From Verrucomicrobiota bacterium (GTDB lineage: Bacteria; Verrucomicrobiota; Verrucomicrobiia; Limisphaerales; UBA9464), in contig JAPLUF010000283.1 of the NCBI GenBank assembly GCA_026397755.1, positions 1 through 45,168 of the forward strand: 45,168 nt of DNA. Direction: 5' to 3'. The translations under genes and the position numbers were made by a program. A model generated the notes under the pieces. It was not told the origin of the DNA, made no database searches, and worked only from the letters and a program-made list of their open reading frames with translations. Of the stretch, positions 3,221-34,820 are shown one piece after another (positions within the stretch are counted from its first letter, which is position 1; every line of letters starts with the position of its first letter).

Positions 3221-3241
3221 GCCGGTGTCCGGCTTCCTTCC

Positions 3242-6896: not shown

Positions 6897-6913
6897 GCCT
6901 GCATTTCCCCCCT

Positions 6914-8383: not shown

Positions 8384-10641
8384 CATTTCCCGAGATACCA
8401 TGGAGGTCCTGGAACGGGCCGCTCACCGCCGACCTGGCTCGGGAGTCCGGAGGGTTTGGATTAGGCCAGGTGCCCGCCCGCCTGAAGCCCGATGCGACCA
8501 CGGGTCTGATTTGCGGTTTTTGCGCCACTGGTTGCGGATTGACGGCCCATTTGGTGGATGGGGAGGCGGTGAACCTGACTCCGGATCCCGCGTTTCCAGT
8601 TAATTTGGGCATGGCCTGCCCCAAGGGTTGGGAAGCGTTGGTTCCTCTAGATGCACCCGATCGGGCCACGACCCCTTGGTTGCGAAATCCTCTCACGGGC
8701 GTCATGGAACCGGTGCCGTGGACCCGTGCGTTGGAGGTGTTCGTTTCGCGAATGAAATCGGTGCAGCAGAAGCATGGGCCCCATTCCATCGCGTTCCTCA
8801 GCACCGGCCAGATTTGCACCGAGGAGATGGCCCTGCTGGGGGCTCTCTTCAAATTCGGAATGGGTGGCTTGCATTGCGATTCCAATACGCGTCAGTGCAT
8901 GGCCACGGCGCATGCCGCCTACAAGCAGAGCTTGGGCTTCGATGCCCCGCCCTATACGTATGCCGATTTTGAAGAGTCGGACTGCCTGGTGTTTGTGGGG
9001 TCGAATCCCGCGGTAGCCCACCCCATTCTGTGGCAACGGGTCCTGCGTAACCGGAGGCAGCCGGAGATCCTTGTGCTCGATCCCCGTCGGACGGAGACAG
9101 CGATGGCCGCCACCTTGCATGTGCCGCTGGCTCCGAAGTCTGACCTTGTTCTCCTCTACGGATTGGCCGCGGCCTTAATCCATAGAGGTGCGGTCGATCG
9201 CGCGTTCATCGAGGCCCACACACGGGGTTTCGCGGAGTTCGAAGTCTTTGTGCAGGAGTTTACCCCGGAGCGCGTGTGCGCCGAGGCAAAGATATCCGGC
9301 GAGCTCTTTAAGACACTCGTGGAGCGCATCGCGACCCGGGCCCGAGTCTCCTACTGGTGGACCATGGGCGTGAACCAGGGCCATGAGGCGACCCGCACCG
9401 CGCAGGCGATCATCAATTTGGCGTTGATGACCGGGCAGATCGGTAAACCCGGGACGGGTGCCAATTCCATCACCGGCCAGTGCAATGCCATGGGGTCGAG
9501 GATCTTCTCCAATGTGACCAATCTTTTCGGGGGTCGCGACTTCGGGAATCCGGCCGATCGGGCTGAGGTGGAGTCCTTGTTGCGGCTGCCTGCCGGCATT
9601 GTGCCTACGGAGAATTCCTGGGCCTATGACCAGATCGTGGACGGCATTGAGTCGGGTGCGATCCGCGGCCTTTGGGTCATTGCTACCAACTCATCGCACT
9701 CTTGGATCCAACAGAGCCGGTTCAATGACCTTCTGGGGCGTCTGGAGTTTCTGGTGGTCCAGGATCTCTACACCACGACCGAGACCGCGCAGCGTGCGGA
9801 TCTGCTGTTGCCGGCGGCCGGTTGGGCCGAGAAGGAGGGAACCTTTATCAACAGCGAACGCCGTCTGGGGTTAGTGAAGCGCATTCGTCGGGCCCCCGGA
9901 CAGGCTCTTTCCGATTTCCACATCTTCCGCTTGGTGGCGGAGGCTTGGGGATGTTCGGATCTTTTGGAGGCCTGGCGCACGCCTGAAGCGGTCTTCGAGT
10001 TGTTGAAGCGCTTGAGCCGCGGCCGGCCGTGCGACATCACGGGGATCGACGGATATCGGGCTATTGATGCACTGGGCGGGATTCAATGGCCGTTTTCGCA
10101 AGCGATGAGGGAGGGTGTCTTGGATTCTGCCTCCGGCGCTTTGCTGGAAACGTTACCCGAGACTCGGGTGGCTGAAATTCGGGAGCGGCGACTCTTCGCC
10201 GATGGTCGTTTCTATACCGCTGATGGGAGGGCTGTTTTCCACTGCTCGACCCCGCAGCCAGTTCCTGAGCCCACTGATGGTCACTACCCGTGGGTCTTGC
10301 TGACCGGTCGCGGAACGAGTTCCCAGTGGCACACCAATACGCGAACTTCCAAATCAGCGGTGCTGCGTCCGCTCTATCCGGAAAACTGTTATGTGGAGAT
10401 CCACCCGGAGGACGCCGCCCGAATCGGATTGCTCCCGGGGGGGCGGGTTCTTGTGCGTTCGCGCCGTGCGGAGTTGGTGGCCGACGCCTGCATCACACCC
10501 ATCGTCCAGCCAGGTCAGGTGTTCATTCCCATGCACTACCGTGAGGTGAACCCCCTCATAAAGTCCGTGGTGGATCCCCTTTCGCGGCAACCGAGCTACA
10601 AGTTCTGTGCTGTCACCCTCGAGGCGCTGCCGCCCTCTTGA
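8380..10641 (+). CDS. nasA: Assimilatory nitrate reductase, molybdopterin-guanine-dinucleotide family (start 8380 preferred over ORF-track 7885)
   Basis: CGFCATGCGL...GMACPKG N-terminal Fe-S motif; GSNPAVAHPILWQRVL; ATNSSHSWIQQS; TGRGTSSQWHTNTRT; ATGA overlap with upstream stop; adjacent to nirA and nrt genes. Confidence 0.85.
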   Translation: MTFPEIPWRSWNGPLTADLARESGGFGLGQVPARLKPDATTGLICGFCATGCGLTAHLVDGEAVNLTPDPAFPVNLGMACPKGWEALVPLDAPDRATTPWLRNPLTGVMEPVPWTRALEVFVSRMKSVQQKHGPHSIAFLSTGQICTEEMALLGALFKFGMGGLHCDSNTRQCMATAHAAYKQSLGFDAPPYTYADFEESDCLVFVGSNPAVAHPILWQRVLRNRRQPEILVLDPRRTETAMAATLHVPLAPKSDLVLLYGLAAALIHRGAVDRAFIEAHTRGFAEFEVFVQEFTPERVCAEAKISGELFKTLVERIATRARVSYWWTMGVNQGHEATRTAQAIINLALMTGQIGKPGTGANSITGQCNAMGSRIFSNVTNLFGGRDFGNPADRAEVESLLRLPAGIVPTENSWAYDQIVDGIESGAIRGLWVIATNSSHSWIQQSRFNDLLGRLEFLVVQDLYTTTETAQRADLLLPAAGWAEKEGTFINSERRLGLVKRIRRAPGQALSDFHIFRLVAEAWGCSDLLEAWRTPEAVFELLKRLSRGRPCDITGIDGYRAIDALGGIQWPFSQAMREGVLDSASGALLETLPETRVAEIRERRLFADGRFYTADGRAVFHCSTPQPVPEPTDGHYPWVLLTGRGTSSQWHTNTRTSKSAVLRPLYPENCYVEIHPEDAARIGLLPGGRVLVRSRRAELVADACITPIVQPGQVFIPMHYREVNPLIKSVVDPLSRQPSYKFCAVTLEALPPS

Positions 10642-10667
10642 GTCGAATGGGCCGCGGGCGTGTTCCC

Positions 10668-10750
10668 GCAGGGGGCTGCCTATTGTTACCTTTTGGCAAA
10701 GGTCTCAAGCAGTATTGGGGGTTGACGCGGTTGGAATTCCAGATTCAATC
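10668..10750 (+). repeat. Copy A of an ~83-bp intergenic direct repeat upstream of the first LamG/PA14 gene
   Basis: gcagggggctgcctattgttaccttttggcaaaggtctcaagcagtattgggggttgacgcggttggaattccagattcaatc; differs from 19801-19884 by one G indel and one substitution. Confidence 0.97.
10722..10749 (+). promoter_or_regulatory. Possible sigma70-like promoter TTGACG-N16-TTCAAT inside repeat copy A
   Basis: -35-like TTGACG (10722-10727) and weak -10-like TTCAAT (10744-10749); inverted repeat ACCTTT-TGGC-AAAGGT at 10688-10703 just upstream. Confidence 0.4.
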
Positions 10751-10909
10751 GCCCTCGAACACCCACCGTTTAGTTAACCGTTTTAGCGCTGCGAAGCGCT
10801 GACCTCTTGGAGGTTGGTTTCGCACATAGAATTTTTGTAACCAGGTAACTTGCCTTGTTGCATTTGTGTCGATTAAGCGGCGGTTCCATAACAAAAAAAC
10901 TCCTACCCA

Positions 10910-13900
10910 ATGAGAAACACACTGAATCGGGCCTTTTTAGTTGGCCTAGTATCGTTTCTGCCAACAGCAGCGTTCTTCACCGCAAGCCAAGCACAAGCGC
11001 AGACCAAATTGGTCGCGTGGTGGGACTTCGAAAAGGTTGAATCCGACGGAGTCTCAGTCAAATCAGTCGTCGGCGGTTATGCCGGACAAATCAACGAAGC
11101 TGCTGTTTTGACGGCTGCCGGCGGCGGACGCCCCGGTGGCGGCAAGGGCTTCGACGTGTCGATCGCCAACAAGGGCTACCTGCTGCACGAGTCTTCCGGG
11201 ACCGACAATCCGCTGAATGTCGCCGCGGCCGACGACAACATCACCATCACCCTGTGGCAGAAGAACTACTCGAATCCGAACTCCAGCACGTTCTGGGCCG
11301 TTGCTGATGACGCGGGTCGCAGCACCCAGGCGCACTTGCCTTGGTCCGACGGCACCATTTATTGGGACTCCGGTGGATGCTGCGGTGGCGATACTCGCCT
11401 CAACCAGAACCCAGGTGCGGCTCACGATTGGAATTCCTGGCACTTGTATTCCTTCGTCAAGCGCGGAACCACCAAGGAAATTTGGATCGATGGCACTCTG
11501 CTCAAGACCGCCGACGGCTTCAAGGCGCACAGCGTCTTGAACACCAAGCTCTTCATCGGTGGTGAGAACGGCGGCAATCCGCCTGACGCCGTCGTCGACG
11601 ACTTCGTCATCTGGCAGGGCGCCCTCAGCAAGGAGCAAATTGCCAAGCTCGCCGCCGGCGCCAAGCCGACCGATCTGGTGATCGATACTGACAAGGACGG
11701 CATCTCTGACGACTGGGAAAAGCAGTACGGCTTCAACCCGAACGACCCTGCCGACGCCAAGAGCGACTTCGACAAGGACGGGTTTGACAACCTGGCTGAG
11801 TACAATGCCGGCACCGATCCGAAGGATCTGACCCCGCCGACTTTGGTGGGCGCTGCTGCCTCCGCCTCGGGCACCACCCTGACGATCACCTTCAGCGAGA
11901 AGGTGGATCCGGTGACCGCAGGCGCCATGGCCAACTACAGCATCACCCCAGCTCTGGCGGTGACCGCTGTGGCCGTTAAGGGCAACACGGTGACCCTCAC
12001 CACAGCCAAACAGACCCTCGACGGCACCGAGTACACCGTCTCGGTCAGCAACGTTCAGGATCTCTCCAAAAAGACGATCGTGGCCGCCTCCAAGGTGAGC
12101 GCTTACGCCTTCGTTACCCTGCGCAACGGCATCGCTAAGTTCTCGGCTTGGTTGGGCATCAGCGGCGGGCTCCAGAACCTGTTGGATGATCCCCGTTACC
12201 AGGCTGGCACACCGGATGTGGTTGGAGCCATGTTTGGTATGAATAGCCGCGATGTGTTTCCTACCGATGCGAATGACAACTATGGTGCGACGATGGAGGC
12301 CATCCTGACCCCGGTTGAGAGCGGCAGCTACCGGTTCTTCATCTACAGCGACGATGCATCTCAGCTCTTCCTGAGCACCGACGACAAGGTAGCCAACTTG
12401 GCGCAGATCGCCGAAGAAACCGGATGCTGCAACTTCTTCACTGAGCCCGAAAGCCCCCGGACCTCTGATCCTATCGCGTTGACCGCGGGCAAGAAGTACT
12501 TCATCCGCCTGATCTATAAAGAGGGCGGTGGTGGTGACTACGGCCAAGTCGCTTGGCGTAAGGAAGGCGATGCAACCCCGGCGTCGGCTCTCAAGCCCAT
12601 CGACGGCAAGTTCCTGAGCGCCGAGGCCGTGGCCTCGCCCGCCGGCTTCATTAAGAGCGTCGCTCCGACGCCCAAAACGGTTCAGGCCGGCAACAACATG
12701 GAGATCGTCCACGTGGACGGCCGCACGGTGCAGACCGCGGCGACCACCAGCCTTGAGGTCGATGGAGCCAAGGTGAATGCCACCATCGAGAAGTCGGGCA
12801 TCTTCCTGACCGTGAAGTACACCGCCAGCTTCGCGCCGAACACCAAGCACACCGCGAAGCTCAACTACCTCGACGTCGCCGGCAAGCCGACCTCTTACGA
12901 GTGGTCGTTCAGCACCAACCCGCTCAATGACGCGAACGCGCTGTTCATCGAGGCCGAAGACTTTGACTTCGACGGCGGTCAGACGATCAGCGATCAAAAG
13001 ATTGGTATGAACGGCAAGTATCCGGGTGACGCCTTCAAAGACAAGTCGGGCATCCCGGGTGTCGACTTCAACAACCCCGGTGGTAACGCCGGCCAGAACT
13101 ACCGGCCTGACACCGGCGTGGCGGCGGGCAAGAGCCCGAACGGCGGCGGTCGCAACCGCGGTTTGTTCGACGTCGATGTGAACTACACCGTCGGCTGGAA
13201 CGACGCGGGTGACTGGCAGAACTACACCCGCACCTTCCCGACCCCGGCCAAGAAGTATTCGGTGTACGGCTTCGCCTCCTCGGGTGGCGATCCGATCCAG
13301 TTCACCCTAGATCAGGTGACCGCCGGTGTGGGCACCGAGGCCCAGACCCTGAAGCGGCTGGCCGAGCTGAAGCCCGGCCGTGCGACCGCGGGTTGGGACA
13401 ATCTGGAGCTCTTCGCGTTCACCGATCCGACCACCAAGGCTCCGTCCGTGCTGGAACTGGGTGGCAAGATGACCCTGCGTCTGACCTTGCCGGCCGGCGC
13501 TGGTGACATGGACTTCATCGCCTTCATCCCGGCGCCCCTCCCGAACAATGTGCTCAGCAAGGACGACACCATCGTTCCGAGCTCCGCCAATCATCCAGCC
13601 GGCGAGGCTTCTCCGAAGGTTATCGACGGTCTCAGCTCCACGAAGTACCTGAACTTCGACAAGCTGAACACCGGCTTCACGGTGACCCCGAAGGCGGGTG
13701 CCTCGGTCATCTCCGCGATCACCATCACGACCGCGAATGACGCTCCTGAGCGTGATCCGGCCACTTGGCAGATCCTCGGATCCAACAACGGCACCGACTT
13801 CGAGGCCATCGCCTCGGGATCGCTCGCTGCCAACTCGACGCGGTTCAAAGTCACCACGCTGGAGTTCTCCAACACCAAGTCCTACACCAGCTACAAGGTG

Positions 13901-14182
13901 GTCTTCCCGACCGTCGTGGACGCTGTCAAGGCCAACTCGATGCAAGTCGCCGAAATCGCCCTGCTGGGCACGGCTTCCGGTGGCAGTGGTGGTGGTGGTG
14001 ATGCGCGCTTCACTGGCATCAAGGCCAATGCCGACGGTACGGTCACCATCACCTGGACGGGTGCTGGCAAGCTGCAGTCCGCTGTCTCGCTCAGCGGTCC
14101 TTGGACCGATGTGGCGGGTGCCGCCAGCCCGCTGACGGTGCCGGCCAATCAGGCCGCCCAGTTCGCGCGGATCGTTAAATAA
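10910..14182 (+). CDS. Secreted multidomain protein: signal peptide, LamG, TSP3-like Ca repeat, Big_5/SwmB-like, PA14-like, CBM6-like, F5/8C-like
   Basis: MRNTLNRAFLVGLVSFLPTA signal peptide; DTDKDGISDDWEKQYGFNPND; SGSYRFFIYSDDASQLFLSTDD (PA14-like); FIEAEDFDFDGG...WNDAGDWQNY (CBM6-like); SPKVIDGLSSTKYLNF (F5/8C-like). Confidence 0.85.
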   Translation: MRNTLNRAFLVGLVSFLPTAAFFTASQAQAQTKLVAWWDFEKVESDGVSVKSVVGGYAGQINEAAVLTAAGGGRPGGGKGFDVSIANKGYLLHESSGTDNPLNVAAADDNITITLWQKNYSNPNSSTFWAVADDAGRSTQAHLPWSDGTIYWDSGGCCGGDTRLNQNPGAAHDWNSWHLYSFVKRGTTKEIWIDGTLLKTADGFKAHSVLNTKLFIGGENGGNPPDAVVDDFVIWQGALSKEQIAKLAAGAKPTDLVIDTDKDGISDDWEKQYGFNPNDPADAKSDFDKDGFDNLAEYNAGTDPKDLTPPTLVGAAASASGTTLTITFSEKVDPVTAGAMANYSITPALAVTAVAVKGNTVTLTTAKQTLDGTEYTVSVSNVQDLSKKTIVAASKVSAYAFVTLRNGIAKFSAWLGISGGLQNLLDDPRYQAGTPDVVGAMFGMNSRDVFPTDANDNYGATMEAILTPVESGSYRFFIYSDDASQLFLSTDDKVANLAQIAEETGCCNFFTEPESPRTSDPIALTAGKKYFIRLIYKEGGGGDYGQVAWRKEGDATPASALKPIDGKFLSAEAVASPAGFIKSVAPTPKTVQAGNNMEIVHVDGRTVQTAATTSLEVDGAKVNATIEKSGIFLTVKYTASFAPNTKHTAKLNYLDVAGKPTSYEWSFSTNPLNDANALFIEAEDFDFDGGQTISDQKIGMNGKYPGDAFKDKSGIPGVDFNNPGGNAGQNYRPDTGVAAGKSPNGGGRNRGLFDVDVNYTVGWNDAGDWQNYTRTFPTPAKKYSVYGFASSGGDPIQFTLDQVTAGVGTEAQTLKRLAELKPGRATAGWDNLELFAFTDPTTKAPSVLELGGKMTLRLTLPAGAGDMDFIAFIPAPLPNNVLSKDDTIVPSSANHPAGEASPKVIDGLSSTKYLNFDKLNTGFTVTPKAGASVISAITITTANDAPERDPATWQILGSNNGTDFEAIASGSLAANSTRFKVTTLEFSNTKSYTSYKVVFPTVVDAVKANSMQVAEIALLGTASGGSGGGGDARFTGIKANADGTVTITWTGAGKLQSAVSLSGPWTDVAGAASPLTVPANQAAQFARIVK

Positions 14183-14207
14183 CGGTTAACACCCGTTCTT
14201 GAATCAG

Positions 14208-14238
14208 GGGGACCGAGGACAACCTCGGTCCCCTTTTT
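14208..14238 (+). terminator. Rho-independent terminator
   Basis: Perfect 11-bp stem GGGGACCGAGG-ACAA-CCTCGGTCCCC followed by TTTTT, 26 bp after the LamG gene stop. Confidence 0.93.
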
Positions 14239-14298
14239 CAATTCGGGTCGGTGGTTGTCCAAGGAGCCGAAACGGATTCGGTGAAGAGAAACCCAGCC

Positions 14299-15921
14299 AT
14301 GGGATCACTGTTTTCGCATGGGATTTGGAAGAGCTTGAGACTTCCTGTCTCTCTCGTCGTCCTGCTCCTGGTGGCGGGCCTCAGTCATGCCGCGGACCAA
14401 CCGCAGGGGGCTGCAACAGCGCCGACGGCACCGCTTGTTGGGTCTGAATCTTCGCCCGAATTTTTGGTTCAGGGTCGTGAATTGGCCCGATTGCATTGTC
14501 AGGGATGCCACCTTCAGCCCGAGCCTGATCAACTCGACAAGGTCACTTGGTATGAACAGACCTTGCCTCGCATGTCCATCCGGCTGGGATTCATGCCCCA
14601 GTCCATCGATCGGCATCCTGAAGCAGATCTTCTGAAGGCTTCCGGCCGTTTTGCCACAACACCCTACATCCCTGTTTCCGACTGGAAGGCGATCACCAAT
14701 TACTACGTCTCCAGCGCGCCGGAGAAGCCGTTGCCGCAGGCGCGATCCCAGCCCATTCGGATGGGGTTAAAGTCCTTTCGGGTCGAGCCGGCCGCCGCCG
14801 CTGAGTCGGGTGGGCCGGAGACGACCCTCGTCCGGATCGATTCCCAGAATCGGCGTTTGTTTGTCGGCGACGCCCGGCGCAAGACCTTGGAATTGCGGGG
14901 TCCGGACGGATCTCTGCGCCAAACACAAACCATCGGAAATGTGCCGGTGGGTCTTTCCTTCGGATCGAGCATGGGCCTTCTCGCTTCGATCGGTAGTTTT
15001 ATGCCGTCCGACCGGCCTTTGGCGGATGTCCGGCGTTGGGACGGTACTTTGGGTTCACTAGCCACCGCCGCGCCGATCTTGACCAACCTTCCGCGGGTGA
15101 CCCAAGCGATCCTCGAAGACCTCAATGGAGACGGTCGGGAAGATTTGATCGTCTCTGCCTTTGGCAACGTGATGGGACGCTTCTCGTGGCATGAGAACCT
15201 GGGAGGCGGGAAATACACCGAACATGTGCTACTGGATCGTCCCGGAGCCATATGCGCCCAGGTTCTTGATTTTAACCAAGATGGTCGCCCGGATATCGGT
15301 GTGCTGGTGGCCCAGGAAACCGAATCCTTTTTCATTTTTCTTAACCGCGGAGCGGGGAAGTTCTCCATGCAGGTGGGATTTCAGCGATCTCCGCTCTTCG
15401 GTCATACCTCCTTTGATGTCGCCGACTTGGATGGCGATGGGCGTCCGGACCTAGTGGTCACCAATGGCGACAACGGGGAATATGCTTCGCCCATCAAACG
15501 CTATCACGGTATCCGGGTTTACATGGGTCGGCCGGATCTCACCTTCCGCGAGAGTTTTTTCTATCCGCTCAACGGGGCGTTCAAGGCTTTCGTCCGAGAT
15601 TTCGATCAAGATGGTCACCCTGAAATTGCCGCCATCTCGTATTTCCCCGACTACTCCAAGTCGCCGGAAGAAGGGTTCGTTTGCTTGGAGAACCGCGGCA
15701 ATTTCCGGTTCGCAGCTACCACCTTCAAGGAAAGCCTGGCGGGTCGATGGCTCACCCTCGACTGCGGCGACTTGGATGGCGACGGCGATGAAGACTTAGT
15801 CCTCGGATCCCACATTCATGGGCCAAGTCCGGTACCTGACAACCTCAAGGCCAATTGGGAGCGCGACCGCATCCCCTTCATGATCTTGCGCAACACCACC
15901 GTGGATCGAAAGGGGCCATGA
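14299..15921 (+). CDS. Exported FG-GAP/VCBS beta-propeller protein with N-terminal c-type heme motif (start uncertain: GTG 14251/14281 or ATG 14299)
   Basis: Signal peptide; CQGCH heme motif; repeated DLNGDGREDLIV, DFNQDGRPDIGV, DLDGDGRPDLVV, DLDGDGDEDLVL. Confidence 0.82.
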   Translation: MGSLFSHGIWKSLRLPVSLVVLLLVAGLSHAADQPQGAATAPTAPLVGSESSPEFLVQGRELARLHCQGCHLQPEPDQLDKVTWYEQTLPRMSIRLGFMPQSIDRHPEADLLKASGRFATTPYIPVSDWKAITNYYVSSAPEKPLPQARSQPIRMGLKSFRVEPAAAAESGGPETTLVRIDSQNRRLFVGDARRKTLELRGPDGSLRQTQTIGNVPVGLSFGSSMGLLASIGSFMPSDRPLADVRRWDGTLGSLATAAPILTNLPRVTQAILEDLNGDGREDLIVSAFGNVMGRFSWHENLGGGKYTEHVLLDRPGAICAQVLDFNQDGRPDIGVLVAQETESFFIFLNRGAGKFSMQVGFQRSPLFGHTSFDVADLDGDGRPDLVVTNGDNGEYASPIKRYHGIRVYMGRPDLTFRESFFYPLNGAFKAFVRDFDQDGHPEIAAISYFPDYSKSPEEGFVCLENRGNFRFAATTFKESLAGRWLTLDCGDLDGDGDEDLVLGSHIHGPSPVPDNLKANWERDRIPFMILRNTTVDRKGP

Positions 15922-18900
15922 GGCGTACTTTGGCCACCGGTGCGTATGCCCTATTACTGGCAGCACCCCGGCTACTGTTTCTCGGGTTAGCGGACGTGCT
16001 CATCATCCCCTTGGTTTTTGCGGAAAAAGCGTCGGTTTCATCGAGTGCGGAAGCCGGCGAGCCGGGCCCAGGTTTTCTGAGATGGCGTCTACCAGTGCGA
16101 ACTCCTTCGGGTGGTGGAGTGGGTGCAGGTTTTCGCGCCGTAGATTCGAGTCGTTCGGGCATTCAGTTCACCAACCGCCTCGAGGAAGCTTCGGCGGCCC
16201 GGAACCGCATCCTCGAAAATGGCTCGGGCTTGGCGTTGGGCGATGTCAATGGCGACGGACTGCCGGACCTCTACTTGTGCAGTTTGGAGGGCACGAATGC
16301 GTTGTACCTCAACCGCGGTGGATGGCGCTTTGAGGAAGCGGCAAAAATAGCCGGAGTGGATTGCTCAGGTCAGCGATCCTCTGGGTGCCTTTTGGTGGAT
16401 GTGGATGGAGACCGCGATTTGGACTTGCTGGTGAATGCCTTGGGCGGCGGCACGCGGTTGTTTCTCAACGACGCGTTGGGCCGATTCACGGAGTCGACCA
16501 ATAGCGGTTTTGCCCGGCGTCTGGGGGCGACTTCCATGGCCGCGGCCGACATCACCGGGGACGGTCTCCCGGAAGTTTATGTGACCAATTACCGCACCAC
16601 GACTTATCGGGATGGATTCGATGGGGCCAAGCCGTCCCTGCGGGTCGTGGACGGAAAACCGGTGGCGGTTCCGTCTTCGCGGTTTGGAGCCACGCGGGTC
16701 CGTGGAGGTGGCGTCATGGTCAATGAGCGTGGGGAAGTGGATGTCCTTTATCGCAACAAGGGAGGAGGCGTCTTCGGCCCGATTTCTTGGACGGCGGGAG
16801 CGTTTCTGGATGCCCGCGGCCAAGCTCTGACGGAGGCTCCGCATGATTGGGGTCTCAGTGTGGCCTTCCGTGATCTCGATGGGGATTTGCAACCGGAGAT
16901 CTATGTTTGCAATGACTTCCTGCTCTCGCGGGATGCCTTCTGGCGCAACACCGGCAGCAAGGGTTTTCAGGCCGTCATGCCCGAGGCCATCCGGCAAATT
17001 TCCATGTCCTCCATGGGGGTGGATTTCGCCGACATCAACCGGGATGGCATCGACGACTTCGTGGTGGTGGACATGCTCTCGGCCGATCCGGCGGCCCGCC
17101 AGCGTCAGCGTGCCAATCACCTCACCGCTTTCGACTGGCCGACGCATGATCCCGCGTTTCGACCGGAGATGTCGCGCAACACCCTCTTCTTGGGCCGTGG
17201 CGATGGCACCTACGCGGAGATTGCGCAAATGGCGGGAATCAGCGCCACGGATTGGTCTTGGTGCCCGATCTTCGTGGACGTGGATTTAGATGGGTTCGAG
17301 GACCTCATCGTGGGTACAGGCAATGACCATGACGTCCTAGATGCCGACCTCCTCCGGGCGGTGCGCGGAGCCGACGGCCGGGACGCCTCGGGCGATGCCG
17401 TGGAAAACCTGCGTCGTTTCCCCCGTCTGGAAACACCCATGGCCGTGTTCCGCAATCGCGGTGATTTGACCTTCCAGAACATGGCGGGGGCCTGGGGATT
17501 GTCCCTACCGGCTATTCGGCACGGCATGGCTTTGGCCGATCTCGATCAGGATGGCGATTTCGATTTGGTGGTGAACCGGCTGCAAGGGCCGGCCGAGATC
17601 CATGAAAACATCAGCACTGCGCCTCGGATTGCAGTGCGGTTGCGTGGCCTTGCACCGAACACCGGGGGCATCGGCGCGCGAATCCGTTTGTTGGGCGGGC
17701 GAGTGCCACTGCAAAGCCAGGAGATGATGAGTGGCGGTCGCTATCTTTCGTGTGACCAAGGCCTGCGGGTTTTTGCAGCGGCCCCCACCGGATCCATGAC
17801 CCTCGAAGTGCACTGGCGCTCAGGAAGATTATCCCGCATCAAAGAGGTTTCAGCCAATTACCTCTATGAAGTCGATGAAGCGGCGGCGAGTGCGTCGGTC
17901 CCGACTCCCCAGCCGGAATCCATCCAAAGCCTCTTCACCGATGCCAGCGCCGTGTTGGCTCATGTCCATGAGGATCCTCCCTTCGACGATTTCCAGCTCC
18001 AGCCGCTCTTGTCGCGCAAGTTGAGCGAGTTGGGTCCGGCATTGGCCTGGTTCGATCTCAATGGCGACGGAGCTGAAGACTTGTTGGTGGGAAGTGGAGC
18101 CGGGGGAATGCCGGCCCTCTTCTACGGGGACGGTCGGGGTGGATTCACCCGGCAGGCGGATTCCGTTTTGGCATCGCCGTCGACTTTGGACACGACCGGC
18201 ATTCTCGGGCTCCACCTGGGTGGTGGTCGGCGGGAGGTGGTGGTCGGAATTGCTTCTCAGGAGGATCCGGGATCGCAGCGGCCCCGTGCCCGCGTGCGGG
18301 TCATCGGCGCCCCAGATTCGGAACCGCTCCTGCCAGAAGCGGTGGCATCATCAGGGCCCGTTGTCGCCGGTGCGGTGGGAGGAGTTGGGAGCCTCGTTCT
18401 CTTTGTCGGTGGACGGTCCATTCCGGGGCGTTATCCCGAGGCGGCGGACTCGGCGCTTTGGGTCCGTGAAGGTGACCGATGGAAAGCCCATCCGGCTGCC
18501 AACGAGGTGTTCCGTTCGGCGGGCTTGGTCAGCGGGGCCGTGTTCACGGATCTCGATGGGGATGGGAACTCGGAGTTGGTGCTGGCCTGCGATTGGGGCA
18601 GTCCAAAAGTGTACGCCTGGGTTCAAGGAGTTCCGGTGGATCGGACCCGCGAGTGGGGACTCGAGGATTTGACCGGTTGGTGGAATTCGGTTCAATCCGC
18701 TGACTGCGATGGGGATGGGCGCATGGATCTGGTGCTCGGCAATCTCGGGCGCAATTCCCGATGGCAAGACCACTTGGCCCGGCCCGCTCGGGTGTATTAT
18801 GGAGAGGCCGACGGCGACGGCCGGCTGGAACTGCTCGAGGCCTTTTGGCATGCAGGAAGTCAGAAATGGCTGCCATGGCGAGATGCCGAGACCGTGGGCC

Positions 18901-19682
18901 GATCGTTTCCGGGGCTCTCGGAGCGTTTGCCTACGTTTCGTGCCTATGGTCAGGCTTCCATCGATGACATTCTCGGCTCCCGGGCCGCAGATTTTCGCCG
19001 TCGCGAAGCAGCCACTGGCGACTCGATGGTGCTGTTGAACCGAGGAGGTCGCTTTGAGCGTCGGCCTCTGCCCATCGAAGCCCAGATGGCCCCGGTGTTC
19101 GGGGTCGCGGTGGCCGATTTCGATGGCGATGGTCGCGAAGATCTGGCCCTGGCCCAGAATTTCTTTGGCGTGGAGCCAGAGACCTCCCGGTTCGATGCGG
19201 GTCGAGGGTTGATCCTGACGGGCCATGGGGATGGGTCCTTCCGCCCCCTCGATGGGACTCGCTCGGGCGTGATCGTTTGGGGAGAACAACGAGCCGTCGC
19301 CGCCGCGGACTATGACGGCGATGGGCGGACCGATTTGGCTCTCAGTCAAAATCGGGGTACGACGCGCCTGTTTCGGAACACCGGAGGTCGGCCCGGATTG
19401 AAGGTGCGGTTGGAAGGTGGAGCGGACAATCCATCAGCCATCGGTGCCCAAGTGCGATGGGGTCGGGAAGGTTGTTTCGGCCCGGCCCGGGAAATCCATG
19501 CGGGTGGCGGCTATGGGTCGCAGGATTCGTCCGCACTGGTGCTGGCATCGACCGAAGCCCCAGCGATTCTGAAGGTCCTTTGGCCGGGAGGGGTTTCAAC
19601 CGAGAGTGCCGTGCCTCAGAATGCTCGTGAGATTCGGGTGCGGCGCGAGGGCACCTCGGCAGTGCTCACTGTAGTGCGCTGA
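15918..19682 (+). CDS. Large CRTAC1/ASPIC-UnbV family protein, two propeller plus ASPIC-like modules in one chain
   Basis: ATGA overlap with upstream stop; DVNGDGLPDLYLCS, DLDQDGDFDLVVN; GGIGARIRLLGG...GGRYLSCDQGL and again SAIGAQVRWG...GGGYGSQDSS. Confidence 0.85.
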   Translation: MRRTLATGAYALLLAAPRLLFLGLADVLIIPLVFAEKASVSSSAEAGEPGPGFLRWRLPVRTPSGGGVGAGFRAVDSSRSGIQFTNRLEEASAARNRILENGSGLALGDVNGDGLPDLYLCSLEGTNALYLNRGGWRFEEAAKIAGVDCSGQRSSGCLLVDVDGDRDLDLLVNALGGGTRLFLNDALGRFTESTNSGFARRLGATSMAAADITGDGLPEVYVTNYRTTTYRDGFDGAKPSLRVVDGKPVAVPSSRFGATRVRGGGVMVNERGEVDVLYRNKGGGVFGPISWTAGAFLDARGQALTEAPHDWGLSVAFRDLDGDLQPEIYVCNDFLLSRDAFWRNTGSKGFQAVMPEAIRQISMSSMGVDFADINRDGIDDFVVVDMLSADPAARQRQRANHLTAFDWPTHDPAFRPEMSRNTLFLGRGDGTYAEIAQMAGISATDWSWCPIFVDVDLDGFEDLIVGTGNDHDVLDADLLRAVRGADGRDASGDAVENLRRFPRLETPMAVFRNRGDLTFQNMAGAWGLSLPAIRHGMALADLDQDGDFDLVVNRLQGPAEIHENISTAPRIAVRLRGLAPNTGGIGARIRLLGGRVPLQSQEMMSGGRYLSCDQGLRVFAAAPTGSMTLEVHWRSGRLSRIKEVSANYLYEVDEAAASASVPTPQPESIQSLFTDASAVLAHVHEDPPFDDFQLQPLLSRKLSELGPALAWFDLNGDGAEDLLVGSGAGGMPALFYGDGRGGFTRQADSVLASPSTLDTTGILGLHLGGGRREVVVGIASQEDPGSQRPRARVRVIGAPDSEPLLPEAVASSGPVVAGAVGGVGSLVLFVGGRSIPGRYPEAADSALWVREGDRWKAHPAANEVFRSAGLVSGAVFTDLDGDGNSELVLACDWGSPKVYAWVQGVPVDRTREWGLEDLTGWWNSVQSADCDGDGRMDLVLGNLGRNSRWQDHLARPARVYYGEADGDGRLELLEAFWHAGSQKWLPWRDAETVGRSFPGLSERLPTFRAYGQASIDDILGSRAADFRRREAATGDSMVLLNRGGRFERRPLPIEAQMAPVFGVAVADFDGDGREDLALAQNFFGVEPETSRFDAGRGLILTGHGDGSFRPLDGTRSGVIVWGEQRAVAAADYDGDGRTDLALSQNRGTTRLFRNTGGRPGLKVRLEGGADNPSAIGAQVRWGREGCFGPAREIHAGGGYGSQDSSALVLASTEAPAILKVLWPGGVSTESAVPQNAREIRVRREGTSAVLTVVR

Positions 19683-19800
19683 CAAGAAGACTCATGCTGT
19701 TAAAGGAGTCTCGAACCCAGCCGGGCGGGAACTCTTCAGCGCAGTCGGAGTCGCAGGCGGAAAGATCTCTGAGCGTCGGAGCTGCCTGTGAAGGTCCAGC

Positions 19801-19884
19801 GCAGGGGGGCTGCCTGTTGTTACCTTTTGGCAAAGGTCTCAAGCAGTATTGGGGGTTGACGCGGTTGGAATTCCAGATTCAATC
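19801..19884 (+). repeat. Copy B of the ~83-bp intergenic direct repeat upstream of the second LamG/PA14 gene
   Basis: gcaggggggctgcctgttgttaccttttggcaaaggtctcaagcagtattgggggttgacgcggttggaattccagattcaatc; nearly identical to 10668-10750. Confidence 0.97.
19856..19883 (+). promoter_or_regulatory. Possible sigma70-like promoter TTGACG-N16-TTCAAT inside repeat copy B
   Basis: Same hexamers and spacing as copy A; inverted repeat ACCTTT-TGGC-AAAGGT at 19822-19837. Confidence 0.4.
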
Positions 19885-20043
19885 GGTTTCGAATTCCCCT
19901 TTGCTGGATAGACCCTTTTGCCGACGTAACGAGCTTCGTTCTTGGAGCACAGTGGCGCGCGCAAAATTAGCAACAATGGCACTTTATTGTTACTTTTAGG
20001 CCGATTCAGTCGGGGGTACCGCAACATAATCACCTCCGACCCA

Positions 20044-23000
20044 ATGAGAAACACACTGAATCGGGCCTTTTTATTTGGCCTAGTCTCGTTCCTGCCAACA
20101 GCAGGCACGAATTTGTTGGCGCAAGCCATCGACCTAAAATCCGGCCTGAAGGCGTACTGGAATTTCGACGCCAAGAATTTCAAGGATTCCGCTGGAATAT
20201 TTGATGGCACGGAGAGCGGCAGCGCACCGATCGCCTTCACGGCGAGCAAGGCGGGACTCGGTCAAGCCCTTCAGCTCGACGGTGTCGACCAGATGGTTGA
20301 GATCACGGGTGGTGAACCTGATGACCTCGCCTTTCAGGGTGGGTCCATGACCGTCGCCGGTTGGTTCAAAGTGGGAGCATTCGACAAATCTTGGCAGGCG
20401 TTGGTTGCCAAGGGTGAGGGCAGCAGCTGGCGTATTCATCGCCGCGGCGGTGAGCCCGGCTTTGCTCATGCCGGTGGTACCGGTGAAGGCCCGGCCATGG
20501 CTGAGCCAGTCAATGACGAGAATTGGCATCATTTCGCAGCCATCTCCGATTTGAACGCCGCCAACTTCGGTACCGCGTTGTACATCGATGGTGTCCAAGC
20601 GACCTCCTTTGCCGGCGCGCCGAATCTTGCGGCCAATGGCAAGCGAATGATGATCGGTGATAATCCGGACGCCCGTGGCCGTTACTGGAATGGTTTGGTT
20701 GATGATATTGCCCTTTGGGACCGGCCGCTGACCGAAAAAGAAATCGGCGCGCTCTACAACAAGGGTGCGGGAGCTTCTTTGAGCAGCCTTTTGGGATCCG
20801 GTCCGGCGGACACGGACAAAGACGGCATGCCCGATGATTGGGAAACCGCGAATGGACTGAACCCCAATGACGCCAGCGATGCAGCCAAGGATCTGAACGT
20901 CAACGGGATCTCCAACCTCGACGAGTTCAAGGGCGGTTTTGACCCCCGTGATACGGTCAAGCCGACGATCGTCTCTGTATCCACAACGGGAACGTTTGAT
21001 AAGGTTACCATTACCCTTTCAAAGGCTCTGGATCCCGCAACCGCGACCAATGTGGCCAACTACGCCATTACTCCGGCGTTGGCGATCTCCAGCATCAGCC
21101 TCAAGGGCTCTGTGGTCACCCTCTCTGTGGCCAAGCAGACCCCCGGTGCTACTGGTTACACGGTGACGCTCAATGGCGTGAAGTCGGTGAACCAGCTCGC
21201 CATCGCGGCCAACAGCAAGACGATCTTCTACTCGTACTTGCTGAGCAAAGACGGCGTCCTGAAGTTCTCGTACTGGGGCGCCATCAATGGCACGCCCGTG
21301 GACAACCTCTATCAGGATCCCCGTTACCCCGCCGCCCCAGACCTCGTTGCTGCAGTCAGCTCATTCAGCAGCCGCGATGCGTTCCCGGATGATTCCCACG
21401 AGAACTACGGTGCCACCATGGAGGGTTATTTGACCCCGACGGAAACCGGGAGCTACCGCTTCTTCATCCATAGCGATGACGCCTCGCAGTTCTTCCTTAG
21501 CTCGGACGACAAGGAAGCCAACTTGGCTCAGGTCGCAGAAGAAGCCGGTTGCTGCAATAACTTCACCGAGCCCGACAGTGCCCGGACTTCCGAACCGGTC
21601 GCCCTGACCGCTGGCAAGAAGTACTTTGTCCGCCTCGTTTACAAAGAGGGTGGCGGTGGTGACTACGGCCGTATTGCTTGGCGTAAGGAAGGTGACAAAA
21701 CCGCTGCCGGTGCACTGCCAGTGATTCCGGGCAAGTTCCTGTCTGCTGCGGTGGATCTACCGGTTCCTTCCGAGGGCAGCTTCAAGACTCAATCTCCCGC
21801 TCCGGGAGCCAAGAATGTTGCAGCCAACGCTTCAGTGACCATTGCTCATGCTGACGGAAAGACTCCGTGGACTGCCGCTAATGTGACCTTGAAGTTCGAT
21901 GGCAAATTGATCACTCCGACGCCGCTGATCAAGGATGGCGCTCTCGCCACCATCAGCTATCAGCCCCAAGGGTTGCTCCCGAGCAAGACCAAGCACGTCA
22001 TCACCCTTGGGTACAAGGATGCCGGCAACAAAGATCAGGTGTTAGAATGGACCTTTGAAGTCGGGCCCTACAGCGGATCAACGGCGGATAAAGTGGGTGG
22101 ATACCCCGGTCTGCTGTTGGGTTCTTCGGTGTTTACCGCCGACGGCGCAGGCGCCACTGGCAAGGCGGGTGACCGTGCTATTAACACGACCATGAAGGGT
22201 GGCCCCGTGGTCAGCTTCAACAGTGCATTCTTGGCCAAGGTCAACGCAGCCACAGCCAACGACGAGCTCACAGTTGCCTTCTGGCAGAAGAAGCTGGATA
22301 CCGCTGATAGTTCGGCGTTCACCATGAACTCCCCGGGAAGCGGCAACAACCGTGGTTTCCATGCGCATGCGCCGTGGAGCAATCAGCACATCTACTTTGA
22401 CACCGTGGGCTGCTGCGATGGCGCGACCCAGCGTATCGAAGCGGGAATCGACACCTTCTCCGGTTATTCCGGCGAGTCGTCCTGGTGGACCAATGCGTAC
22501 CATCTGTTCGTGTTCACCAAGAAGGGTGCATCCAAGAACATCTGGGTTGACGGTAAGCTGTTCTTGTCTGGTGAGAGCACCGCCAAGTTGCCGGTGGACA
22601 TCGACGCCTTCTACATGGGCTCCGGTGCCAACGGTGGTGAGCAGAGCCACGCCATCATCGATGACTTCTCTGTTTACGGTAAGGAGTTGGTCGAGGCCGA
22701 CATCGTCGCTTTGTCCAAGGGCACCTTGCCGACGGCTCTCCCAGCTGCCAAGGGCCTGATCGCTTACTGGGACTTCAATACCCCGAGCGGTGACACGACC
22801 TCCCTGACTCAGGGTCTGGTGGCTTACTGGAACTTCGACGGAACCTTGATGGATTCCGTGAAGGACTTCCACGGTACGGGTCGCGGCGCTACCCCGGTGG
22901 CTTTCGGAGAGGACCATGCGAACTTCGGCAAGGCCCTCCAGCTCAACGGTAAGGATCAATACGTTGAGATCACCGGTGGCAACGAGGATGAACTCGAGTT

Positions 23001-23664
23001 CCCGAATGGCAGCATGACCATCGCTGGATGGTTCAAGGTGGGTGCCTTCGACAAGAGCTGGCAGGCGCTGCTCTCCAAGGGTGAAGGCTCTAACTATCGC
23101 ATCGCCCGTCGCGGTGATGGCAATGCCGTTGGCTACGCCGGTGGTGTAGGTGAAGGTGCTGACGACGTGGGTTCTGTGAACGACGGCCAGTGGCACCATT
23201 TTGTCGCTGTCAGCGATGCGACCGGTGCCGCCTTCGGTACTGCGTTGTATATTGATGGTGTCCTCCACGGCATCAACGCGACGAAGCCCGTGCTCACCGC
23301 GACCACCAAGCGCCTGTTCATTGGAGAGAACCCGGATTCACTCGGCCGTCAGTGGAATGGTTCGATCGACGATTTGGCGATTTGGAAGCGTGTCCTGACT
23401 GGTGGCGAAGTCGCCACTCTCTGGAACTCAGGTGCGGGCCTGCCCTTGAGCACGCTCCCCAGCATCAAGCCGCCTTCTGAGCCGCTCAAGGTGGCCATCT
23501 CTGCGGCTGGTGGCAATGCAACCATCTCCTGGGCTCCTTCCGGGGGTACCCTCGAGTCCTCCCCGACGCTCGGCGCCGGTGCTGTGTGGACTGCAGTAGG
23601 AACAGCCAACCCCGCGACGATCACGGTTGGGAACGCCAACGTGTTCTACCGAGTTCGCAAGTAA
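20044..23664 (+). CDS. Secreted multidomain protein: signal peptide, LamG, TSP3-like, Big_5-like, PA14-like, two further LamG domains
   Basis: MRNTLNRAFLFGLVSFLPTA matches the 10910 gene; three LamG segments (GLKAYWNFD..., FAKVNAATANDELTVAFWQKK-like..., GLVAYWNFDG...); DTDKDGMPDDWETANGLNPND; SGSYRFFIHSDDASQFFLSSDD. Confidence 0.85.
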   Translation: MRNTLNRAFLFGLVSFLPTAGTNLLAQAIDLKSGLKAYWNFDAKNFKDSAGIFDGTESGSAPIAFTASKAGLGQALQLDGVDQMVEITGGEPDDLAFQGGSMTVAGWFKVGAFDKSWQALVAKGEGSSWRIHRRGGEPGFAHAGGTGEGPAMAEPVNDENWHHFAAISDLNAANFGTALYIDGVQATSFAGAPNLAANGKRMMIGDNPDARGRYWNGLVDDIALWDRPLTEKEIGALYNKGAGASLSSLLGSGPADTDKDGMPDDWETANGLNPNDASDAAKDLNVNGISNLDEFKGGFDPRDTVKPTIVSVSTTGTFDKVTITLSKALDPATATNVANYAITPALAISSISLKGSVVTLSVAKQTPGATGYTVTLNGVKSVNQLAIAANSKTIFYSYLLSKDGVLKFSYWGAINGTPVDNLYQDPRYPAAPDLVAAVSSFSSRDAFPDDSHENYGATMEGYLTPTETGSYRFFIHSDDASQFFLSSDDKEANLAQVAEEAGCCNNFTEPDSARTSEPVALTAGKKYFVRLVYKEGGGGDYGRIAWRKEGDKTAAGALPVIPGKFLSAAVDLPVPSEGSFKTQSPAPGAKNVAANASVTIAHADGKTPWTAANVTLKFDGKLITPTPLIKDGALATISYQPQGLLPSKTKHVITLGYKDAGNKDQVLEWTFEVGPYSGSTADKVGGYPGLLLGSSVFTADGAGATGKAGDRAINTTMKGGPVVSFNSAFLAKVNAATANDELTVAFWQKKLDTADSSAFTMNSPGSGNNRGFHAHAPWSNQHIYFDTVGCCDGATQRIEAGIDTFSGYSGESSWWTNAYHLFVFTKKGASKNIWVDGKLFLSGESTAKLPVDIDAFYMGSGANGGEQSHAIIDDFSVYGKELVEADIVALSKGTLPTALPAAKGLIAYWDFNTPSGDTTSLTQGLVAYWNFDGTLMDSVKDFHGTGRGATPVAFGEDHANFGKALQLNGKDQYVEITGGNEDELEFPNGSMTIAGWFKVGAFDKSWQALLSKGEGSNYRIARRGDGNAVGYAGGVGEGADDVGSVNDGQWHHFVAVSDATGAAFGTALYIDGVLHGINATKPVLTATTKRLFIGENPDSLGRQWNGSIDDLAIWKRVLTGGEVATLWNSGAGLPLSTLPSIKPPSEPLKVAISAAGGNATISWAPSGGTLESSPTLGAGAVWTAVGTANPATITVGNANVFYRVRK

Positions 23665-28816: not shown

Positions 28817-28927
28817 ACCGACTACCACCCGTCAAGGGAATTGCCTTCGCTCAGGCTACGACGCGGGCACTTCGGCCGGCTGATTTGAAAGTGCGTCGAT
28901 AGCAGACAAAGATACCAGGAGGGGTTC

Positions 28928-31900
28928 TCAGCGCAGACGGAGTCTCAGCCGGAAATATCCCTGAGCATCGGTGCTGACAGGGACCGTCCAGCGGAGCGTT
29001 TCGAGGCCATCGCCAAAAACCGGAATTCCCGAACCACTGGTCATCGGGATGGGCTGCCACTGTTCCAGATTGCTGGACTGTTCCCAAAAGGCGTCGGCCC
29101 GGTCGGCCGACAGGGGATGGGCGAGGGACAGACTGATAGCACCGTCGCTGTCCAATCGGAAGGAGGGTCGATGCAGGGTGGGTTGGTCTTGGGGGTCGGT
29201 GTCGCTGGTTCCTTGGAAGTATTCCTCCAGAGCATTCCATCCGTCACCGTCGCCGTCGGTCGTTGGGGAACCGAGGAAAGGCCGGGAATCCGAGGTACCG
29301 GGAGTGCCGCCGGTGACCGTGCTGGGGCGCCATTGGGTAGCTTGGGCGGGGTCGCGGCCTTCGGTGGAGGTTCGCAGAGTGAGCGATGAGCCACGTCCGT
29401 CCGCTTCGGTGGGCCACGGCGGCGAATCGTCGTAGGGGATGCGTACAATCAATCGGCCTGAGGGGGCCAGCAGACGCACGGTTCCGCCGCCGTGGCTCAG
29501 GCTTCCGGAGAAGGGGGCGAGGACTCGAGGGAGTCGACCGTAGCGTGCCTGGAATGCCACGGGGTCGGCGATGAACACGGCCCGCTCGCCGGGTCTGAGG
29601 ATCGCGCCATTCGGGACCACGGCGTCGATGTCGCCCGACAAGCGGCTCCCGCCGATCAGGGCCCAACGGTTCGTGCCCCGATGGCCAATTTCGACGAAGG
29701 ACTCGGCGTCGTTGGTGCTCGGGTGATAGTGGATCTCGCTGACCTCCAGGTCGGTCTCGGCCGCGACGGTTTCCGGGGTCAGAAAGAGTGCTTCGCTCCC
29801 AGCGGAGGCGCCTGAGCCGATGCGGCGTTGGGCTCGGATTCGCAAGGGATGTTCGAGGGGAATGGGTTCCGTGTAGGCAAGGGCGGTGGGGGTGAGTTCG
29901 CCGTTTGAGGTCAGCGGATCCGAGCCGTCGGTGGTGTAGAAAAGGTCGGAGCCTCCGCTCAGGATGATCCGGGTTCCGGTCGGCAACACACCGCCGGCAG
30001 GATTTAAGGTCACGGCCGGGGTTGGGATCGGTGTCTCGAGGCCGACCCGCCGGAAGCGGGCCAGGGCGATGGCGTGGATCCGGGGCCAATAGGTGGTCTT
30101 CATCCAGGCCATTTCGGTGATCCAGTCGCTGCGTTTGAGGGGCGTGGACTGTCGGCTGTCGCCCCAGCGGGCCGACTCGGCGACGATGCTGAGGTCGATT
30201 TCGGCCTGGCGACGCTCCCAACGAGCGCTGTTTTGTAATGGGGTCAGCAGACCGAAGCCTTGCGTGAGTTCGGAGACGCGCGCGGCGAATCGGGCGCGAA
30301 AACGGGCGTTCTCGCGGAGCTTGGAGTAGAGGAAGGCGGGGGAATCCTTGGGTCCGCTGACCGACTCAAAGGCTTCGCCAGTGTAGGTCTTGGTTTCGGT
30401 CAGGGAGAGGTTTGAGATTTCTTGGTCCCAGGTGAAGAAGCGGAATCCGCCGCGGGTACCGTCGCGACCGCGGGCGCTCCACCAGTTGTGGTTGGGCCAA
30501 TCAATGGCGCCCGAATAAATGTGCAGAATCATGTAGTCGATGAGGCTGTCCACATCCAGATGGACCGGCATGGCTGGGTCGCGAGTGCCGTCGATCCGTC
30601 GACCCTGAAGTTTCCAATAGGCCGCATCGGAGCTGAACCCGGATGTAGCCAAGGTCATCATGGCGTCCCACGCCGTGCGATGACCGCTCTCTACTTCACC
30701 GACATCCTTGATGATGTCGTAGTCGTCCGGACTTCCGCCGAAGTTTTCCGACAACCAGGCCGCCTCGGTCCGCTCGGCCAGATTGTATTGCCCCCAGTAA
30801 AGTCCGTTGAGGAACAGATGCACGTAGCGGCTGTGTCCGCATGGCCAACCCAGAGCCTGCTGGGTATCTTTCATCCAGACATCTCGGAGGTAGGTGGCCT
30901 TCTTGCGGTTCCAAGGTGTGGCATCTTCGACGGCCCAACTATCGGTGGATGAGGCACGCAAGGTGAGTTCGTCGGACGAGGTAACCCGGGTGTCGTCAAA
31001 CAGCGGGAATCGGAGTCGGGAGGGACCGTACTCGCGGGAGAAATTGAGGCGGAAGCTGTGTTTGCGTGCATGCCAGTGTTGTCGGCTCAGACCGCCGTGG
31101 ATCCGCAGTCCGGCGTCGATCTGGAAGCCGGGTCGTGGGCTCGACTCAGAGCCCGCGGGCTCGAGCCACTCGGCCGACGCGGGTCGAACCCACTGCGACC
31201 CTTGGCTCGCGCTGTTGGGATAAATCCCGGTGGCAGCGTCAAACAGGTCGTTCACGTCGGCGGTGATGCACACCGACGGCAAGGACCGAATCGCCTCGGT
31301 GATTCCGTAGCCCGGCGAGGTGGTCCGGATCACGTCTGGGTCCATTTCGTAATCGGCCGGGACCGGTTGGCCGGGCGAGGGACCATAGGCGCCGTAGACC
31401 CCCCAAGTAGTCGGGTAGCCGGGCGGTTGCGCCGATTGGCGTTCGACTTGGTCGGCGAACAAATAGGTGTGGGTTTGGACCGGAGAGGGTTCCTGGTCGG
31501 CTGCAAAGGCCATCGCTCGGACGGGGCCGCTGCGGGAAACCAGGATCTCGACGGAGGCCACGCCGGAGGCAGGATCCGGATCGACCCGGGTGCCATGGTT
31601 GGCGGTGGGTGTGCTGCCATCCAGGGTGTACTGCAGCCGAGCTCCCGGGGTGGGGCTAGTTAGGCCGATCCGGACGGGCCCGGCATAGAATCCGCGCCCC
31701 TTCGAGAAGGTTGGTGCGGCGGTGAAGCCGGAGATGCCAGCGCCGTTGGGTTCACTCGGGCTGGGAGTCGTGAAGAAACGATGACCCAGAGACTGGCCCA
31801 TGCGCAGTTCCGCCTGGATCAAGAAATCCGATCCCGCTGCGCGGTCGTTCAGCCCCTCGAGTGCCAAGAGATTAGGGCCGGTCTGTAGCGGCAATGGGGG

Positions 31901-33496: not shown

Positions 33497-33582
33497 GGCT
33501 ATGTCAGCTTTTTACCGAGAGCTCGGCATGATGTCTTGCCCCAACTGGGGTGAAGCGCCATGGACTGCGAATGAGCCCGTTA

Positions 33583-34356: not shown

Positions 34357-34457
34357 GGATGATGCGACGAACTAAACCAATGCCTCGAAAGTTCACCCGG
34401 GTCAATGCGGTCGAGAACTGCGGTCACCGACGGACCGTGTCTGCCGACGCGGCGCTT

Positions 34458-34626
34458 TCGGAGAAATCGCCCCACCAAGGAGGTGCTCGGGTAAGGTGGA
34501 GTTTGCAGCAGGAACCCGGCATGCAGCCCGATGAGCCTCCTAGTCCGATCCTGCTCCTAGGTAGGGACCGATCTCCGAGCGGTCCGGCACCGCAGACGTT
34601 GGTGTTTTCGGAGATATCGCCCTACC
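34458..34626. repeat. Intergenic palindromic repeat cluster: two direct copies and one inverted copy of a ~19-bp unit
   Basis: 34458-34476 TCGGAGAAATCGCCCCACC; 34560-34578 GGTAGGGACCGATCTCCGA (inverted); 34608-34626 TCGGAGATATCGCCCTACC; direct copies continue into similar AAGGAGGTGCTCGGG / CGGAAGTGCTCAGGG. Confidence 0.75.
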
Positions 34627-34820
34627 ACGGAAGTGCTCAGGGAAAGCTCAGTCGGAACGTTTTTTAAAGATGGATCGGTCGTGCTGGCTGGGTCGTCTTC
34701 CGAAAGAGCAGGGTTGGTCGCTGGTTACGGGCCTCAGCCGGGCCCTCGCTCTCGCCTCGTCTGGCCAAAGAATCGGCTGCGTCGTCCCGTTTCCTCCCAA
34801 CAGAAATCGTTTCTGCTCAG

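Follow-up and report, generated by a model that had tools for sequence, protein, structure and literature searches.

In homology-facilitated illegitimate recombination, homology on one side is combined with a microhomology junction on the other, and several kilobases of DNA are gained. Variation through divergent, 'switched' upstream regions has been described before and goes along with differences in expression (PMC5890482), and natural transformation in Bacillus subtilis yields short, discontinuous patches of donor DNA (PMC13344027). The locus considered here lies on a contig from a Verrucomicrobiota bacterium (JAPLUF010000283.1; the whole stretch of 45,168 nucleotides (nt) that was analysed is referred to as the window), in which two nearly identical blocks of about 83 bp, block A and block B, each stand upstream of a gene for an exported protein with LamG and PA14 domains, here termed gene A and gene B. 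A literature search on LamG/PA14 in freshwater Verrucomicrobia found nothing. The paired blocks are best read, with a probability of roughly 0.8, as a recombination scar at which two versions of a variable locus were joined in tandem. The genome that contains the window is a fragmented draft of the metagenome-assembled genome (MAG) type, with 3.79 Mb in 410 contigs and 80.6% complete. Five close species were compared, namely that of the window, G019, G023, G028 and G031; gene-B orthologues were compared in four of them (the window, G023, G031 and G028).

The two blocks differ by a single G (GGGGG in block A, GGGGGG in block B) and one A/G substitution, as first described, and both coordinates and letters proved right when re-checked. 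Their match (E = 1.7e-35) is well above chance, and the longest identical run common to both is ~69 nt. In each copy 159 nt separate the end of the block from the ATG (at 10910 and 20044), an equal distance that was also correctly recognised at the outset and that follows because the whole leader is homologous. The DNA in between had been called loosely alignable, and indeed it is ~60% identical over ~150 nt, yet homologous in spite of this divergence (z ~9.9 against mononucleotide shuffles). The alignment that runs from the block into the signal peptide has 298 positions and 57 mismatches, of which 52 lie in a central tract of 144 positions, and the maximum chi-square is 42.0, with no value above 15.8 in 200 permutations; since the mismatches sit in one tract and the permuted values are far lower, the mosaic is real. 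In full, the repeated stretches cover 10667-10970 and 19800-20104, ~300 bp each with a divergent middle. The original prediction had offered two causes for this pattern, and the one that stands is recombination or local gene conversion, not a simple recent duplication, whereas constraint on a promoter/operator module does not.

The edges of the blocks are instructive. On the left side, copy A is joined without a break to nasA, an arrangement shared with G023, G031 and G019, while copy B abuts C', the stump of a convergent homologue of a downstream gene, gene C. Past the right edge, copy A is followed by a divergent spacer allele (spacer A) and copy B by spacer B, the order also present in G023, G031 and G028. 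In G023 and G031 the nas gene or genes, the block, the spacer and gene B form one unbroken stretch. The window is collinear with G023 to position 10970 and again from 19800, and the extra segment of ~9.13 kb between the block copies comprises gene A, the FG-GAP protein genes P3 and P4, and the 22-codon stump. Backbone identity among the five species is ~95-98%, broken abruptly by tracts of 60-80%. The nas genes of the window (~3000-10600) form a tract ~75% identical to G023, compared with 97% between G019 and G023 over the same region; block A and the last ~25 bp of nasA are back at backbone level (~95% or more to G023), and the near-identity of the two blocks equals this background level of the close species. 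Among the spacers, spacer A is the only outlier (~60%), with ~47-66% identity to spacer B and to the spacers of all gene-B orthologues, and no close relative of it was found in 19 genomes of the genus; the spacer B version is present in G023, G031 and G028. The spacer A tract is thus a divergent sequence between near-identical flanks at a single locus. The gene-B-type start on gene A, together with the tie of copy A to nasA and of copy B to gene B, argues that the 83 bp are merely where two longer tracts of homology overlap and form no unit of their own, and both edges of the block appear to be recombination breakpoints.

Judged from its sequence, gene A has a composite start, in which a gene-B-type leader and signal-peptide start are fused in frame: the first ~20 codons are of the gene-B type, the gene-A body follows, and the frame is kept. 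The body is orthologous (81-83% nt identity) to genes that stand beside P3 and P4 orthologues in G029, G022 and G021, and there the orthologues have other signal peptides (for instance MKSQRVAFSALGAAAFFAAAQAQAQTK in G022) and another promoter, their upstream regions carrying a GTTGACA of their own and no block. No gene A orthologue above about 60% identity was found in G019, G023, G028 or G031, bar two short stretches of 61-65% (9588-amino-acid G028 protein). Three other origins were considered and rejected. A fresh import of gene A, P3 and P4 from the GC-rich G029, G021 or G022 (GC content 0.69-0.71) does not agree with the values of 0.58-0.62 for these genes, which match the window instead. 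Spacer A as a leftover of the native leader of gene A is contradicted by its weak alignment to the G029 leader (z 2.7, compared with 9.9 to spacer B). A target-site duplication made by a mobile element fits poorly with flanking repeats of ~300 bp that have a divergent middle and with a segment in which neither a recombinase gene nor terminal repeats were found, its genes being A, P3, P4 and C' only.

At the right end of the segment C' translates, on the minus strand, as a truncated C-terminus of the gene-C type, and the intact gene C ends in LRWTVPVSTDAQGYFRLRLRLR followed by a stop. The junction letters are CAGGGGGGCTGCC in the window and CAGGCGTGCTGCC at the corresponding place in G019, and C' meets block B at a CAGGnGnGCTGCC-like microhomology of ~13 nt, which is imperfect. 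C' is the neighbour of P4 in G022 as well, where by eye P4 is followed, in convergent orientation, by a gene whose 3' end is similar, and as a remnant in G019, whose contig C105 has the order P3-P4-C' remnant-DUF3050 without gene B. It is at this join that an assembly artefact has to be weighed, in which contigs of two coexisting strains were joined at the common block. A fragmented draft, close relatives that are lake MAGs and the identical run of ~69 nt between the blocks would all suit such a chimera, but the odd join is that of C' to block B, where the shared sequence is too short for a k-mer join; moreover, the two blocks differ in sequence, and the gene-B-type signal peptide is fused to gene A in frame. 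Because the critical join has short, imperfect homology only, a chimera is unlikely.

The stretch from the nas (nitrate/nitrite assimilation) genes to the DUF3050 gene appears to be a variable locus in this group of freshwater Verrucomicrobia. One version reads nas-block-spacer-gene B-UnbV-UnbV-TPR-DUF3050 and the other gene A-P3-P4-gene C (or its remnant)-DUF3050, and the window carries both in tandem. In the preferred explanation, a divergent haplotype would have been imported by homologous recombination on the left (nas/block) side, and the right side would have been closed by the microhomology junction at the CAGGnGnGCTGCC-like sequence. Patchy gene conversion may have kept or restored resident-type patches, in the block and in the signal peptide, around the divergent spacer, and gene A would now be served by the promoter and leader of gene B, a form of regulatory-region switching. 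Genes A and B may be expressed alike as a by-product of their position at one locus, with no dispersed regulon. The donor, the order of events and the effect on expression are inferred.

Several points weigh against this explanation. Neither spacer A nor the exact fused haplotype is present in any genome found, and the donor and the event order are unobserved. In G019 the contigs break off to either side of the place where gene A would lie, which leaves the second version only partly visible there. The genome of the window is an incomplete draft of the MAG type. Finally, blocks A and B share letters absent from G023 and G031, which could also reflect a plain duplication of the block and a later exchange of spacer A. 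This last point belongs to another order of events, in which gene A, P3 and P4 would have been inserted with a target duplication of ~300 bp and spacer A alone then replaced from another allele. Such a history is a variant of the recombination explanation and, as to that order, a serious rival that can be entertained tentatively. It accounts for flanking copies that span exactly one stretch and that have these letters in common, at the price of a second event confined to the spacer; the segment's lack of a recombinase gene tells against it, and the left-hand nas genes diverge from G023 too, which points to a longer imported haplotype.

Table 1. Features of the locus, in window coordinates.
Feature	Position	Strand	Remarks
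Backbone-like stretch: nasA 3' end and block A	10617..10755	+	unbroken with nasA in G023 and G031, left half in G019
Block A	10668-10750	+	within the backbone-like stretch
Inverted repeat ACCTTT-TGGC-AAAGGT, copy A	10688-10703	+	second copy at 19822-19837
Possible promoter TTGACG-N16-TTCAAT, copy A	10722-10749	+	geometry as in gene-B orthologues
Spacer A, divergent leader allele	10756..10893	+	outlier relative to spacers of gene-B orthologues
Gene-B-type start and signal-peptide n/h region heading gene A	10900..10970	+	in-frame junction near 10965-10972
Gene A	10910..14182	+	exported; LamG (Laminin_G_3), TSP3-like repeat, Big_5 and PA14 domains
P3, FG-GAP protein	14251..15921	+	CxxCH haem-binding motif by eye; adjoins gene A in G029, G021 and G022
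P4, FG-GAP/UnbV_ASPIC protein	15855..19682	+	G019:C105 orthologue 94% identical in amino acids
C' stump, convergent gene-C homologue	19736..19806	-	last 22 codons LRWTFTGSSDAQRSFRLRLRLR, then stop
Block B	19801-19884	+	left edge joins C'; runs rightward into spacer B and gene B, likewise in G023, G031 and G028
Possible gene B promoter TTGACG-N16-TTCAAT, copy B	19856-19883	+	letter match
Spacer B, gene B leader	19885..20043	+	middle 87-99% identical in four species
Gene B	20044..23664	+	exported; three LamG stretches and PA14; directly after the block in G023, G031 and G028
Gene C, LTD/CotH/LamG exported protein	28928..33496	-	intact relative of C'; missing at this place in G023

The original prediction had allowed for constraint on the block as a promoter or operator shared by co-regulated genes for exported proteins, to be checked by a search for it in the genome and in relatives. 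That search gave no further copies upstream of secreted LamG/PA14 genes. The window's genome, as far as the draft is complete, holds no third copy, and BLAST and a profile derived from five copies gave no secure dispersed copy outside this locus in 50 genomes of the family. The secure matches in relatives come from four close species, G023, G031, G028 (right half) and G019 (left half), with at most one block copy in each and all at the same locus. Profile matches of low significance (E 0.04-0.8) are no better than chance and were not accepted as further copies, and when the GTDB contig collection was scanned for exact matches to the block core, three records came back. A dispersed promoter/operator regulon is rejected on these grounds: there are two copies, both at one locus, and none dispersed in the family. 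A related proposal is that selection maintains the block, as a constrained promoter/operator or structured leader that governs a family of exported LamG/PA14 proteins, while the spacer drifts. Between gene-B orthologues the block core is 87-96% and the mid-spacer 87-99% identical, and lower values (73-88%) are confined to the initial ~40 nt of the spacer B type; with block and spacer conserved to about the same degree, the block is not specially constrained relative to the adjacent DNA. The fixed 159 nt to the ATG in both copies would suit a constrained element but is explained by homology of the entire leader. Retention of the TTGACG-N16-TTNAAT geometry in every gene-B orthologue and an inverted repeat that is perfect in three genomes speak for constraint, yet the repeat is gone upstream of gene B in G028, the block has no match in Rfam, and its folding is ordinary compared with shuffles (z -0.9 and -0.7). 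With no third copy in the genome and none dispersed in the family, a constrained element of this kind is improbable.

The letters TTGACG-N16-TTCAAT and ACCTTT-TGGC-AAAGGT, reported in the original prediction, are present in both copies (Table 1). The second hexamer of the promoter-like pair is TTTAAT in G023 and TTGAAT in G031 and G028; a stricter consensus promoter scan detected neither copy in the window, and the -10 element is weak. In G028 the right half of the block stays with gene B and the left half is gone, and this retention, together with the TTGACG-N16-TTNAAT pair in every genome, suggests that the right half may hold the gene B promoter. The inverted repeat has a different history. 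Its loop, TGGC in the window, is TGAT in G023 and G031; in G019 a DruA-type element cuts the repeat, close to the point at which G028 has lost it, and the loss in G028 adjoins an element whose ends resemble those of a repeated element. DruA-type elements occur in several copies in G019, G023 and G035, and the G035 copy begins a DruA-family (PF14236) frame. Gene B of G028 is 79% identical in amino acids over residues 1-924 of an open frame of 980, and since the gene is retained there without the inverted repeat, the repeat is not essential for keeping it. The repeat thus appears dispensable, and in G028 it seems to have been replaced by a DruA-type mobile element. As a regulator site for a family of exported proteins, the role first suggested for it, the repeat fails on two counts, being neither dispersed nor kept in G028 alongside gene B; outside this locus the one further site, in G020, is unrelated, and a dispersed operator was rejected.

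The dispersed element starts CAGGGCTGATTCATCTGCAT (L012:5756-5933; L011, that is G028:C131, ~9632-10532; L111 from 1502), and its G028 copy is shortened, has matching inverted ends and sits at about the same point of the inverted repeat as in G019. A structured RNA leader or riboswitch was also rejected, Rfam being blank and the fold of the block not beyond composition; among the spacers, spacer A folds better than shuffles (z -2.8) and spacer B does not (z -1.1). Within the P4 coding sequence, TTGACCGGTTGGTGGAATTCGGTTCAAT at 18669-18696 resembles the promoter-like core of the block, probably by coincidence, and TGA readthrough in P4 paralogues was discarded, the one checked having an ordinary terminal stop.

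Other parts of the locus vary as well. Within gene B, identity to G023 falls from ~97% to 64-74% at 22000-22750 and then returns to ~97%, in the manner of a replaced tract, and in G031 and G028 a comparable switch relative to G023 sets in some 800 bp into gene B. In G031:C14 (L010) most of the nas operon is gone, with ~0.7 kb of the nasA 3' end left before the block. A second segment missing from G023 (window 28846-33575) holds gene C, between the TPR and DUF3050 genes, and downstream of the DUF3050 gene lie short intergenic repeats (34421-34653) that are found in G019 and G023 too, and at both ends of the locus in G028.

Overlapping recombination tracts alone can yield a conspicuous 'conserved module', and a relative at ~97% identity suffices to tell such an overlap from a regulatory element. 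A broader and rather doubtful proposal is that the nas-to-DUF3050 stretch might be a cassette locus, at which species of freshwater Verrucomicrobia exchange sets of exported LamG/PA14/FG-GAP proteins through recombination at a shared promoter-leader-signal-peptide anchor. Were this so, incoming proteins would land automatically under a resident promoter and secretion signal, and the locus would illustrate, in a little-studied freshwater lineage, how genes for exported proteins can acquire a promoter and the start of a signal peptide through recombination. The parallels with described systems are close without being exact. As in horizontal regulatory transfer and switched intergenic regions (PMC5890482), divergent upstream regions alternate by recombination and a gene gains another one; here the exchange takes in the start of the signal peptide, the two versions end in tandem, and the case is known from sequence alone. 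As in the mosaics of natural transformation (PMC13344027), several short donor segments would lie close by with recipient sequence interspersed, but the Bacillus subtilis pattern has its counterpart here in a comparison of genomes from different species. The term 'homology-facilitated illegitimate recombination' is used in PMC6382021. That process is matched by the nas/block homology on the left, the C'-block B microhomology on the right and a gain of several kilobases, with the difference that at this locus the polarity is deduced from the sequence.

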